Below are positions 53,461 to 58,245 of a stretch of DNA of 64,000 nt, piece by piece. A program made the position numbers and the translations under genes. Numbering within the stretch: position 1 is the first letter of the stretch; each line of letters begins with the position of its first letter. The DNA is from Acidobacteriota bacterium (GTDB taxonomy: Bacteria > Acidobacteriota > Blastocatellia > Pyrinomonadales > Pyrinomonadaceae): contig JAFAVK010000127.1 of NCBI GenBank assembly GCA_019242475.1, positions 124,001 to 188,000 of the forward strand, given 5' to 3'. Below the pieces are notes generated by a model. That model saw only the letters and a program-made list of their open reading frames with translations. It did no database searches and was not told where the DNA came from.

Positions 53461-56091
53461 ATGTCGAACATAGACTACGCACATCTGCATCTTCATACGG
53501 ACTATTCACTTCTCGACGGCGCCATCCAGATCAAGCCGCTCGCCGAGCGCGTCAAGGAACTCGGGATGAAGGCGTGCGCGATGACCGACCACGGGAACAT
53601 GTACGGGGCGGTCTCCTTCTACAAGGAGATGAAGGCGCACGACGTGAAGCCTTTGATCGGCTGCGAGATTTATCTGGCCCCGGGCAGCCGCTTCGACAAG
53701 AATGAGGTGCGCAAAGGGGGCAAGCCCTACAACCACATGATCCTCCTCGCGAAAGACCGCGAGGGCTACCACAACCTCGTCCGCCTCACGTCCAAGGCGT
53801 TCCGCGAGGGCTTCTACCGCAAGCCGCGCATCGACCGCGAGCTGCTCGCACAGTTCTCGGGCGGGCTCATCGGGCTGTCGGCGTGCCTGTCGGGCGTGCC
53901 GCAGGAGCATTTGAAGGAGGGCCGGCTCGAAGAGGCGGCGAAGGCGGCCGGCGAGTTCGAGGACATCCTCGGCAGGGGAAATTACTTTTTAGAGATTCAA
54001 GACCACCAGCTCGAAGACCAGATCAAAATAAACCAGAGCCTCGTCGAGCTTTCGAAGAAGACCGGCATCCCGCTCGTGGCGACGAACGACGCGCACTACC
54101 TCTACCGAGAAGACTATGAGGCGCACGACGTGATGCTCTGCATCGGCACGGGCAAGACCGTCAACGACCCGAACCGGATGCGCTTCGGCGGCCCCGAGTG
54201 GTACGTGCGCTCGCCCGAGGAGATGGCCGAGCGTTTCAAGCACATCCCCGACGCCGTCACGCGCACCGTCGAGGTCGCCGAGATGTGCGACCTCAAGCTG
54301 CCCTTGGGCGAGAACCAGCTCCCCGTCTACCCCGTCCCGCGCGAGTTCGGCGACATGGGCGTTGACGAGTACTTCGAGAAGGTCGTGCGCGACGGGTACG
54401 AGAAGCGGCGCGAGACACTCTGGGACAGGATGCTCTCGGAGGGCACGCTCAAGCACTCGCTCGCCGAGTACCAGCAGCGCATCTCGACCGAGGTCGCGAC
54501 CATCAAGCAGATGGGCTTCCCCAGCTACTTCCTCATCGTCTGGGACTTCATCAAGTTCGCCAAAGACCGGCACATCCCCGTCGGCCCCGGCCGCGGCTCG
54601 GCCGCCGGGAGTTTGATCGCCTACTGCCTGGAGATCACGGACGTTGACCCCTTGCAGTACGACCTCCTCTTCGAGCGCTTCCTCAACCCCGAGCGCGTCT
54701 CGATGCCCGACATCGACATCGACTTCTGCGTCAACGGCCGCGCCGAGGTCATCAACCACGTCACGCAGCTCTACGGCCGCGACTCGGTCTGCCAGATCAT
54801 CACCTTCGGGACGATGGCCTCAAAGGCGGCCATCAAGGACGTGGGGCGCGCGCTCGACATGCCCTACGCCGACGTCGAGAAGATCGCCAAGCTCATCCCG
54901 CCCCCCGTCCGCGGCCGCAACGTCTCCATCGACCAGGCGCTCGAAACGGTGGCCGAGCTGAAGCAGGCGGTGGAGTCAGACCCGCAGGTCAGGAAGGTCA
55001 TCGACATCGCCAAGCGGCTCGAAGGCTGCGCGCGCCACTCGTCCGTGCACGCGGCGGGCGTCGTCATCAGCCCGAAGCCTCTGGAAGAGTTGATTCCCGT
55101 CGCGGTCAACAACAAGCAGGAGTTCACGACGCAGTTCGAGATGTCCGACCTTGAGAAGACGGGCATGCTCAAGATGGACTTCCTCGGGCTGACGACGCTG
55201 ACCATCATCGACCAGTGCTGCAAGACGATTAAGGAGCTGCACGGCCGCGACATCCGCTGGTCGGAGATTCCGCAGGACGACCCGAAGACCTATGAGTTGT
55301 TCGCGACGGGCCACACGGACGCGATCTTCCAGTTCGAATCTTCGGGGATGGCCGAAATCTGCCGCAAGCTCGGGCCGAAGTCCATCGAAGACCTCTCGGC
55401 CCTGAACGCCCTCTACCGGCCGGGGCCGCTCGACGGCGGCATGGTGGACGACTTCATCGACCGCTACCACGGCAAGAAGCCGGTCGAGTACCTCGTGCCG
55501 GAGATGCAGGACATCCTCAACAACACCTACGGCATTCTGGTTTATCAAGAACAGATCATGCAGCTCGCCCAGAAGCTCGGCGGCTACAGCTTAGGCGAGG
55601 CCGACCTCATGCGCCGCGCGATGGGCAAGAAGAAGCGCGAGGAGATGGCCGTCCACGAGGACAAGTTCATCTCGGGCTGCTCGAAGAACAAAATCCCCAA
55701 GAAGACCGCCCGCGAAATCTTCCGCCTCATGGCCCAGTTCGCGGACTACGGCTTCAACCGCTGCCTGACCGGCGACGCCGAGGTGGTTAACGCCGACACG
55801 GGCGAGATGGTCGCCATCCGTGACATCGCCGAAGGACGCTCCGACATCTCCCGCACGTACGGCTTCGACGGCGAGCGGGTCTTCGTTAACGAAATAGTCG
55901 AGGCTTTCGAGACGGGCGAGAAGGAGGTCGTCGAGATCGAGACGGAGGACGGCACGACCATCCGCTGCACGCTCGACCACAAGTTCCACACGGACGAGGG
56001 GTACTTGCCGCTGAGGGAGATTATCGAGCGCGGGCTCGAACTCAGCTTCTCGCCGGAGGTCGCGGAGTATGCCGCATCCCGCGTGGACTAA
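53461..56091 (+). CDS. dnaE: DNA polymerase III alpha subunit, N-terminal part fused to split intein IntN
   Basis: An 876-residue protein. Residues 1-767 are the N-extein: PHP domain (HLHTDYSLLDGAI at the start), polymerase catalytic core with PDIDIDF at 416-422 and a third Asp at 573 (LKMDFLGL), and the thumb/fingers region up to FADYGFNR. Residues 768-876 are an intein N-fragment of 109 residues starting Cys-Leu-Thr-Gly, with block B TLDH (in IRCTLDHKFHT, about 85-95 of the intein) and ending at TAA. The order LPLREIIERGLELS resembles the cyanobacterial DnaE IntN. The real start is ATG 53461 (MSNIDYAH), the normal DnaE beginning, not an upstream extension. Confidence 0.96.
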   Translation: MSNIDYAHLHLHTDYSLLDGAIQIKPLAERVKELGMKACAMTDHGNMYGAVSFYKEMKAHDVKPLIGCEIYLAPGSRFDKNEVRKGGKPYNHMILLAKDREGYHNLVRLTSKAFREGFYRKPRIDRELLAQFSGGLIGLSACLSGVPQEHLKEGRLEEAAKAAGEFEDILGRGNYFLEIQDHQLEDQIKINQSLVELSKKTGIPLVATNDAHYLYREDYEAHDVMLCIGTGKTVNDPNRMRFGGPEWYVRSPEEMAERFKHIPDAVTRTVEVAEMCDLKLPLGENQLPVYPVPREFGDMGVDEYFEKVVRDGYEKRRETLWDRMLSEGTLKHSLAEYQQRISTEVATIKQMGFPSYFLIVWDFIKFAKDRHIPVGPGRGSAAGSLIAYCLEITDVDPLQYDLLFERFLNPERVSMPDIDIDFCVNGRAEVINHVTQLYGRDSVCQIITFGTMASKAAIKDVGRALDMPYADVEKIAKLIPPPVRGRNVSIDQALETVAELKQAVESDPQVRKVIDIAKRLEGCARHSSVHAAGVVISPKPLEELIPVAVNNKQEFTTQFEMSDLEKTGMLKMDFLGLTTLTIIDQCCKTIKELHGRDIRWSEIPQDDPKTYELFATGHTDAIFQFESSGMAEICRKLGPKSIEDLSALNALYRPGPLDGGMVDDFIDRYHGKKPVEYLVPEMQDILNNTYGILVYQEQIMQLAQKLGGYSLGEADLMRRAMGKKKREEMAVHEDKFISGCSKNKIPKKTAREIFRLMAQFADYGFNRCLTGDAEVVNADTGEMVAIRDIAEGRSDISRTYGFDGERVFVNEIVEAFETGEKEVVEIETEDGTTIRCTLDHKFHTDEGYLPLREIIERGLELSFSPEVAEYAASRVD
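55762..56091 (+). other. Split intein N-fragment (IntN) coding segment
   Basis: Codons 768-876 of the dnaE-N gene. It has the block A opening CLTGDAEVV, block B (T-x-x-H), and terminates where natural split inteins are divided. The Cys at position 1 is the N-S acyl shift nucleophile. Confidence 0.93.
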
Positions 56092-56875
56092 AAGGCTGAC
56101 GCCGGAAGTCGAGGGCTTCATCGTCGAGCAGTACCGCGGCGGCCGGAGCGCGGGCGAGATTCTGAGGGGCATCCCCTTCAAGACGAAGAAGACCGTCTAC
56201 GACGTGCTCGAACGTCACGGCGTGCGGCGGCGCGGCGGCGTCGCCGACTACAAGAAGGGCTTCGACGAGGCGGCCTTCGCCGTCATCGACACGGCCGAGA
56301 AGGCGTACTGGCTTGGCGTACTCATCACGGATGGTTACGTGGTTGCGTCGAAACAGACTGGCTCGCCGGTCGTCGGATTGCAGATGATCGACCGCGAGGC
56401 GGCCGAAGGGTTCCGTGGCTTTCTCGGGCTACAACACCCGGTGCTGTGCATCGGGCCGAAGGGGGAGCGCCATCAGCCGATGTACCGCGCGGTCTGTCAC
56501 TCCCGCCGCCTGGCGCGCGACCTCGCGCGGTTCGGCGTCATCCCGCGCAAGAGTCACAGCACCTTCCTGCCGATCCTCGCGGAAGGGTTGATGCCGCACC
56601 TCCTCCGCGGACTGTTCGACGGCGACGGGACGGCGAGCCGCCGCGCGGACGGCCAGCTGCTCGTCGGCTTCTGCGGAAGCGAGCGGCTGGTCGCGGAGGT
56701 GCGGATGTGGCTCATCTGCCGCCTCGGCGTCTCGGACAACCGCGTCCACGAAAACGGCACGATACGTTACGTCCAGTGGTCGCACCGCTCGGACGTGCGG
56801 CGCATCGCGCGCTACCTTTACGGCGGCGGGCCGCGCCTGTCGAGGAAATACGAACTGCTCAGGGAATGTCTATGA
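56069..56875 (+). CDS. Free-standing LAGLIDADG homing endonuclease inside the split dnaE
   Basis: A 268-residue protein in the +1 frame relative to dnaE. The N-terminal part (about 8-60) is basic and helical with a helix-turn-helix look (SAGEILRGIPFKTKKTVYDV). Two LAGLIDADG motifs follow: YWLGVLITDGYV (about 80-91) and LLRGLFDGDGTA (about 178-189), each with the acidic residue needed for catalysis. The ATG overlaps the last 23 nt of IntN and is preceded by GGAGGT 8 nt upstream, so it is translated as a separate protein. The stop overlaps the IntC start (ATGA). It probably cuts intein-less dnaE alleles to spread the element. Confidence 0.93.
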   Translation: MPHPAWTKRLTPEVEGFIVEQYRGGRSAGEILRGIPFKTKKTVYDVLERHGVRRRGGVADYKKGFDEAAFAVIDTAEKAYWLGVLITDGYVVASKQTGSPVVGLQMIDREAAEGFRGFLGLQHPVLCIGPKGERHQPMYRAVCHSRRLARDLARFGVIPRKSHSTFLPILAEGLMPHLLRGLFDGDGTASRRADGQLLVGFCGSERLVAEVRMWLICRLGVSDNRVHENGTIRYVQWSHRSDVRRIARYLYGGGPRLSRKYELLRECL

Positions 56876-58245
56876 ACGTGAAGAAGACGAAGATCGTGCG
56901 CGTGACGCCCGTCGGGGTCGAGAAGACCTACAACATGGAGATGCGGGCGCCGCACCACAACTATTTTGTCAACGGGCTGCTGTCGGCCAACAGCCACTCG
57001 GTGGCCTACGCGCACGTGGCGTATCAGACGGCGTATCTGAAGGCGCATTACCCGGAGCACTTCTACGCGGCGGTCATGACGAACGTGACCGACGACACGG
57101 CGAAGATTTTCAAGTACGCGTCGGAGCTGCGGTCGCAGGGCATCAAGATGCTGCCGCCCGACGTGAACCAGTCGGGGCCGGGCTTCACCCCCGTCGAGCG
57201 CGCGGTGCGCTACGGGCTCTGCGCGATCAAAGGCATCGGCCAGACGGCCGTGGACGCCGTCATCGCGGCGCGGCAGGAGAAGCCCTTCCGCTCCATCTTC
57301 GACTTCGCCGAGCGCGTCGGCGAGAAGGGGTCGGGCAAGCGCGTCCTCGAAAGCCTGGTCTGCGCCGGCGCCTTCGACTCGCTCCGGCCCGAGGGCGAGG
57401 ACATCCACTCGTGGCGTGCGCGCCTCTTCGCGTGCGTGGACAGGGCGCTGGCGCGCGGCGCGACCGCGCGGCGCGACCGCGACAGCAAGCAGGTGGACAT
57501 GTTCGGCTTCGCCAACGCCGGCGCGCAGGAGGCGGAGGAGCCGCCGCTCCCCGTCACGGGCGTCGAGCCGTGGACGCACAAGGAGCTTCTGACGCGCGAG
57601 AAGGCGGCCGTCGGCTTCTACGTCTCGGGCCACCCGCTCGAAGACTTCACCGAGAAGATCGAGCAGCTCAACTGCGTCCCCATCTCGGAACTCTCGTCGG
57701 TCGAGCCGAACTCGCGCGTGAAGGTCGTCGGCATCTCCTCGGACTTCGTCGTGCGCAACACGAAGAAGGGCGACCGCTACGCGATGTTCCGCCTCGAAGA
57801 CCTCTCGGGCGCGGGCGTGAAGTGCGTGCTCTGGCCCGAGGCGTTCAAGACGAAGGGGTCGGACGCGGCCGACGACGCGATGCTCGTCGCCGTCGGGCGC
57901 TGCGAGGGCGAGGGCAGCCTGACCGTCGTCTGCGACGAGGTGACGGCGTTAGACCGCGCGCGCGTGCCGATGACGAACGGCAAACCGACCTACGCGGGGC
58001 GCCTGCGCGCCAACGCGCTCGTCATCGAGTTCCCGACCTGCGACGACGTGCTGCGCGCCGGTGAAACGGTCGCGGACGCCCTGTTGGCGCATCCCGGCGA
58101 CTGCGAGGTCTTCATCGACCTCCACCTGAACGAAGAGAACCTCACCGTGCGCGCGCGCACCGCGCAGTTCGCCCGCGTCGCGCCCAACAAGCAGTTACAG
58201 GAGACGCTCCTCGCCGCCGGAGTCCGCGTCCGTTGGGTGGAGTAG
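56872..58245 (+). CDS. dnaE: Split intein IntC fused to DNA polymerase III alpha, C-terminal part
   Basis: A 457-residue protein. Residues 1-40 are the intein C-fragment (MNVKKTKIVRVTPVGVEKTY ... ending LLSAN), with block F (NMEMRAPHHNYFVNG) and the terminal Asn preceded by Ala, as in cyanobacterial DnaE inteins. Residues 41-457 are the C-extein beginning SHSVAYAHVAYQTAYLKAHY, then the HhH tail (GLCAIKGIGQTAVDAV), the OB fold (VKVVGISSDFVVRNTKKGDR) and C-terminal domain. The start ATG 56872 is chosen over ATG 56866 because AGGGA at 56861-56865 gives 6-nt spacing only for the second. With the N-part, total extein length is 1184, normal for DnaE. Confidence 0.95.
   Translation: MNVKKTKIVRVTPVGVEKTYNMEMRAPHHNYFVNGLLSANSHSVAYAHVAYQTAYLKAHYPEHFYAAVMTNVTDDTAKIFKYASELRSQGIKMLPPDVNQSGPGFTPVERAVRYGLCAIKGIGQTAVDAVIAARQEKPFRSIFDFAERVGEKGSGKRVLESLVCAGAFDSLRPEGEDIHSWRARLFACVDRALARGATARRDRDSKQVDMFGFANAGAQEAEEPPLPVTGVEPWTHKELLTREKAAVGFYVSGHPLEDFTEKIEQLNCVPISELSSVEPNSRVKVVGISSDFVVRNTKKGDRYAMFRLEDLSGAGVKCVLWPEAFKTKGSDAADDAMLVAVGRCEGEGSLTVVCDEVTALDRARVPMTNGKPTYAGRLRANALVIEFPTCDDVLRAGETVADALLAHPGDCEVFIDLHLNEENLTVRARTAQFARVAPNKQLQETLLAAGVRVRWVE

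Follow-up and report, generated by a model that had tools for sequence, protein, structure and literature searches.

Introduction

Naturally split inteins are major tools of protein engineering. In the split DnaE of cyanobacteria, the intein lies at the junction Y/CFNKSHS. Another known arrangement, found mainly in phages and metagenomes, is the fractured gene; Dassa et al. reportedly described such genes in 2009 and proposed fractured phage genes as the missing link to split genes. Examples are AceL NrdHF, with a GIY-YIG homing endonuclease (HEN; PMC7891396), and PolB of phage MIJ3, with an HNH HEN (PMC6892783). Here, we report on dnaE, the gene of the DNA polymerase III α subunit, in a 64,000-nucleotide stretch of an Acidobacteriota genome (contig JAFAVK010000127.1, positions 124,001 to 188,000; hereafter the window, its genome being G000). 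A split intein interrupts this dnaE, and an endonuclease gene lies at the break, an observation made in an earlier note on this DNA and confirmed by our analysis.

As in fractured genes, the break in a conserved DNA-synthesis gene falls at the intein's HEN insertion point, and a free-standing endonuclease gene stands between the N-terminal and C-terminal intein fragments (IntN and IntC). Here, however, the arrangement is found on bacterial chromosomes and in the only DnaE detected, the endonuclease is of the LAGLIDADG type, and in relatives the same site may be empty, lack the HEN, hold another nuclease in its place, contain a contiguous intein or have its two halves dispersed. Our partial coverage of the literature returned no published account of a split DnaE in Acidobacteriota or Chloracidobacterium; as far as it goes, three things are new: the fractured state of a sole cellular replicase that is probably essential, the involvement of a LAGLIDADG endonuclease, and the series of states that ends in dispersed halves. 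The locus is very probably a mobile split-intein cassette (IntN, LAGLIDADG HEN, IntC) at a conserved site of dnaE, rescued by trans-splicing and spread by homing.

Architecture of the split dnaE locus

Between positions 53461 and 58245, dnaE consists of three overlapping genes on one strand, each starting before the preceding one has ended (Table 1). The N gene encodes 876 amino acids (aa), the last 109 of which form IntN. The middle gene (268 aa, +1 frame) overlaps the end of the IntN gene by 23 nucleotides (nt), and its TGA stop overlaps the ATG of IntC (ATGA); the C gene then encodes the 40 aa of IntC and the rest of DnaE. An alternative start (ATG 56866) would make IntC 2 aa longer. The overlapping genes may be translated in a coupled manner. 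Joined together, the exteins (767 + 417 = 1184 aa) align with the uninterrupted 1184-aa DnaE of the congener G002 without any gap, at 90% identity and with an identical junction sequence.

The polymerase parts match the DNA polymerase III α family (E = 0), IntN matches the intein N-terminal splicing region (TIGR01445; Table 1) and the middle gene matches LAGLIDADG_3 (3.5e-11). When IntN and IntC are compared with the PDB, DnaE inteins are the top matches (E = 2e-11). The signature of a class 1 intein is present (Cys1, TLDH as the block B TxxH, a C-terminal Ala-Asn and Ser+1), as is the organization of a fractured gene, with IntN ending one open reading frame (ORF), IntC opening the next and the free-standing endonuclease gene in between. 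One score speaks against an intein: with the Pfam intein model IntN reaches 26.4 bits, under the cut-off of 35.8, although a low score is to be expected because it is a half-intein. A search of the whole G000 genome with PF07733 found one DnaE only, the split one; this replicase is probably essential. The earlier note had described a dnaE in two parts, a 109-residue IntN with Cys1, T-x-x-H and a stop, a 40-residue IntC ending in Ala-Asn and followed by the remainder of DnaE, exteins adding up to a DnaE of normal length and an endonuclease gene at the break. All of these elements are in place, and the acidobacterial host and fractured-gene layout that it proposed fit all of the evidence.

Table 1. 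Features of the split dnaE locus (window coordinates) and predicted viral contigs with a fractured dnaE
Feature	Location	Strand	Basis
dnaE N-extein, 767 aa (DnaE residues 1-767: PHP, NTPase, finger domains), ends FADYGFNR	53461..55761	+	
IntN, 109 aa, Cys1, block B CTLDH; stop TAA 56089-56091	55762..56091	+	TIGR01445 3e-12; DnaE intein structures 2e-11
Shine-Dalgarno-like GGAGG inside IntN, 9 nt before HEN start codon	56055..56059	+	read from sequence; putative function
Free-standing LAGLIDADG homing endonuclease (HEN), 268 aa, +1 frame	56069..56875	+	Pfam, dN/dS 0.10-0.21
First LAGLIDADG-type motif, WLGVLITDGY	56309..56338	+	
Second LAGLIDADG-type motif, LLRGLFDGDG	56600..56629	+	
Shine-Dalgarno-like AGGGA, 6 nt before ATG 56872	56861..56865	+	read from sequence; putative function
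IntC, 40 aa, block F HNYFVNG, block G LLSAN, ends SAN	56872..56991	+	
dnaE C-extein, 417 aa, Ser+1, starts SHSVAYAH; HHH_6 domain and C-terminal remainder of DnaE	56992..58245	+	
IMG/VR contigs with dnaE fractured at the same site, several endonuclease types	L117-L119, L121-L123, L125-L129, L132-L140, L145-L147, L153, L156-L163		

The earlier note had also likened the intein to that of cyanobacterial DnaE. The likeness to the Ssp and Npu inteins stands as regards homology (E = 2e-11), host protein, intein split point and the Ala-Asn end, but does not extend to the insertion site: the window junction YGFNR/SHS lies 4 codons further downstream in DnaE than the cyanobacterial one, so the two insertions are distinct. 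Moreover, the +1 residue is Ser here and Cys there, the HEN is still present in the window genome, and the intein tree places the window lineage apart from the cyanobacterial split DnaE inteins. The Chloracidobacterium group (see below) resembles the cyanobacteria in having unlinked half-genes without an endonuclease, whereas the halves in the window are adjacent, with the HEN between them.

Conservation of the layout and selection

The same succession of IntN stop, +1-frame HEN, ATGA and IntC is found in G000, in G003 (same genus), in G014 (same family) and in G091 and G083 (another family). In the four other genomes, as in G000, the ATG of the HEN falls within the last part of IntN (TATGCCGC...), and the ATGA overlap with IntC is kept. 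Since the three-gene overlapping layout recurs in these genomes, a chance ORF was rejected. The ratio of nonsynonymous to synonymous substitution rates (dN/dS) indicates purifying selection on the HEN (0.21 for G000-G003 and 0.10-0.12 against G014) as well as on IntN and IntC (0.06-0.14). Cys1, TxxH, the C-terminal Ala-Asn and Ser+1 are invariant in the 15 intein carriers that we identified (15/15).

A series of states in the Blastocatellia

These carriers come from a search for IntN in 162 genomes of the class Blastocatellia, 124 of which have an empty site, i.e. an uninterrupted match spanning the junction; 396 genomes sampled evenly across the phylum added no IntN outside the class. The cassette with its HEN is present in the five carriers described above. 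In G072 the HEN has shrunk to a 22-codon ORF (MPRTAWNKRLTPEIEERITRYL) while the split is retained, in G077 it is replaced by a nuclease ORF of the Uma2 family (PF05685), and G073 has a contiguous mini-intein. In all seven genomes of genus g39 (the Chloracidobacterium group), the N gene and the C gene are unlinked, each keeping its intein half; on three near-complete chromosomes the halves are 719-1241 kb apart along the shorter arc, the large contig being taken as a circle. Three g39 genomes have a single PF07733 polymerase each, the split one. In Chloracidobacterium the predicted splice junction reads AFNK-SHS, and the tryptic peptide SHSVCYGVLAYR, with its N-terminal cut after Lys, is predicted only from a spliced protein.

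In every split form (14/14) IntC starts with a Met exactly 40 residues before Ser+1, which suggests a single break point that was inherited or spread as a unit. Nearly every state (empty, cassette with HEN, HEN lost, nuclease replaced, contiguous and dispersed) is represented within a single bacterial class, always at the same insertion site and in the only replicative polymerase detected. These relatives seem to document the way in which a gene can become permanently split, which bears on the origin of split genes such as cyanobacterial dnaE. A point against this order of events is G073, which fits either a passage from contiguous to split or one from split to re-fused. The inteins form a new family of natural split inteins, distinct in sequence, with one branch in what is apparently the thermophilic genus Chloracidobacterium.

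The Uma2-family (PD-(D/E)XK) ORF of G077 lies on the − strand of L076, between IntN (ending at about 5466) and IntC (from 4718). A second intein occurs upstream in the same dnaE, at about residue 694-700 and with its frame open to the N-extein, in G091, G073 and G077 (L072, L075 and L076). At the insertion site of the window intein, a contiguous mini-intein is also present in the dnaE of a Chloroflexi bin (L116).

Probable mobility of the cassette

Within family f1, only G000, G003 and G014 carry the intein, and both carrier genera have congeners with an empty site (G001 and G002 in genus g1, G038 in genus g12). The intein tree, built on 147 columns, groups the f1 inteins with that of G091 (95/93), a grouping that the exteins reject (approximately unbiased test, p-AU 0.0005). 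Between f1 and f2 the ratio of intein to extein distance is 0.25-0.41, compared with 0.93-1.92 inside families f2 and f3. Several points weigh against a transfer: the resolution of the intein tree is limited and the inteins do not reject monophyly of the f2 inteins (p-AU 0.058), the f1 exteins evolve fast and inflate the contrast in distances, and synonymous divergence gives weak support for transfer within f1 (p 0.015 and 0.054). Sliding synonymous divergence revealed no co-conversion tract in the flanking exteins. Because of the fast f1 exteins and the f2 monophyly that the inteins do not reject, we consider transfer of the intein into f1 to be probable, albeit not proven.

The intein-free G001, of the same genus as G000, reads FCAAHA at the insertion site with unchanged flanks (L185/L092; a single case near a contig end), whereas the other intein-free class members examined all read FNRSHS (29/29). 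It may be an allele that resists homing, or a scar left by conversion. A paralogue as donor was rejected: the DnaE-like paralogues checked read FPESHA.

Proposed mechanism and alternative explanations

Whereas the sequences show the anatomy of the cassette, its conservation, the selection on it and its distribution, we infer trans-splicing, homing and the order of the steps. The HEN would cut an intein-free dnaE at the FNR/SHS junction, which would be the exact target site for homing, and the whole cassette would be copied in. The scattered occurrence of carriers is compatible with such cutting. An insertion of this kind would split the gene at one stroke, and trans-splicing would make this survivable. 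The IntN- and IntC-bearing halves of DnaE would associate and splice into the 1184-aa polymerase by way of a Cys1 thioester, the acceptor Ser+1 and Asn cyclization. Loss of the HEN would remove the link between the halves, which a rearrangement could then separate, as in Chloracidobacterium. That the only detected DnaE of g39 is in unlinked halves is the strongest indirect evidence for working trans-splicing in this intein family. The reading of the earlier note, that an essential polymerase is made by trans-splicing, is supported at this level.

The earlier note had named assembly errors breaking one continuous intein gene as one finding that would overturn it. G000 is indeed a draft in 145 contigs, but the breaks lie at homologous positions in four other, independent genomes, among relatives whose identity falls to about 60%, and the shifted frame is under coding constraint; these genomes exclude such an error, the chances of which we put at practically nil. 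A real break might still be bridged during translation, two programmed frameshifts yielding one IntN-HEN-IntC polypeptide that splices in cis like an ordinary LAGLIDADG intein. IntN and IntC do share a frame with the HEN between them, as in ordinary bifunctional inteins. Yet the HEN has its own conserved start, an upstream GGAGG and an N-terminal helical region, the stops are conserved, and the split is intact in G072 beside a HEN remnant. The Chloracidobacterium-group halves, moreover, are separate genes in different places that a frameshift cannot join. We consider this route very improbable.

Separate halves could also form a two-subunit enzyme by non-covalent association, the intein fragments being relics. 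A gene that a free-standing endonuclease has broken can keep its function without splicing, as reported for the genes-in-pieces NrdA of phage Aeh1 (PMC3653736). Here, however, unspliced halves would carry extensions of 109-155 aa and 40 aa within a conserved polymerase motif; in addition, purifying selection acts on IntN as well as on IntC, and no splice residue varies across the 15 genomes, those with distant halves among them. We hold a non-covalent enzyme to be improbable. Somewhat less improbable, but still unlikely, is an inert HEN with vertical inheritance only, absence in relatives being due to loss. The divergence of the element between G000 and G003 does equal that of the exteins, as vertical descent would have it; against it stand the purifying selection on the HEN frame, carriers and non-carriers side by side within one genus, twice, and the conflict between intein and extein trees. 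We therefore retain a mobile, trans-spliced cassette as the preferred explanation.

The homing endonuclease

The HEN has an N-terminal helical region followed by two LAGLIDADG motifs, and its sequence has no match in the PDB. Foldseek matches its predicted model (predicted local distance difference test score, pLDDT, 70) to I-DmoI, I-WcaI and I-SceI (E about 1e-5 to 1e-4). Motifs, predicted fold and Pfam match all identify it as a LAGLIDADG homing endonuclease. It is assigned to the free-standing or intron-type LAGLIDADG enzymes of phages (phrog_4645), with which it shares the two motifs and the helical region, with phage relatives at up to 34% identity. It differs from them in being embedded in, and overlapping, the split intein of a cellular replicase gene. 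Within the class, full-length copies are confined to the dnaE cassettes.

Fractured dnaE genes on predicted viral contigs

Scanning IMG/VR, whose contigs are predicted to be viral, for IntN returned 60 loci. In about 30 of these (not dereplicated), dnaE is broken at the same site, with IntN, a stop, an intervening ORF and IntC (Table 1). In L125 and L145 the ORF is related to the window HEN, at 27-34% identity and with E values of 2e-26 and 3e-31, the insertion in L145 being 2 codons further on; more distant relatives are found in L133, L146 and L157, and other loci have zinc-finger/nuclease-like ORFs without clear Pfam assignment. All of these HEN relatives surfaced through the IntN scan, a direct pattern scan of IMG/VR having confirmed none. 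Two GenBank-annotated Rhodococcus/Gordonia phage dnaE regions have no split annotated at this site.

A phage reservoir for the cassette is plausible, with the phage inteins mostly forming a branch apart from the bacterial ones in the intein tree. We lean towards a history in which a phage-type fractured-intein cassette homed into a cellular replicase gene, its endonuclease was lost or swapped (G072, G077) and the halves were dispersed (Chloracidobacterium group), so that a trans-spliced replicase would have evolved apart from the cyanobacterial one.

Among the viral loci, L142, L147 and L160 are split with almost no sequence between the halves. L120 and L130 have contiguous mini-inteins in phage dnaE; in that of L130, a Met stands internally where IntC would begin (ENMKKCK), which may be left over from a re-fusion.

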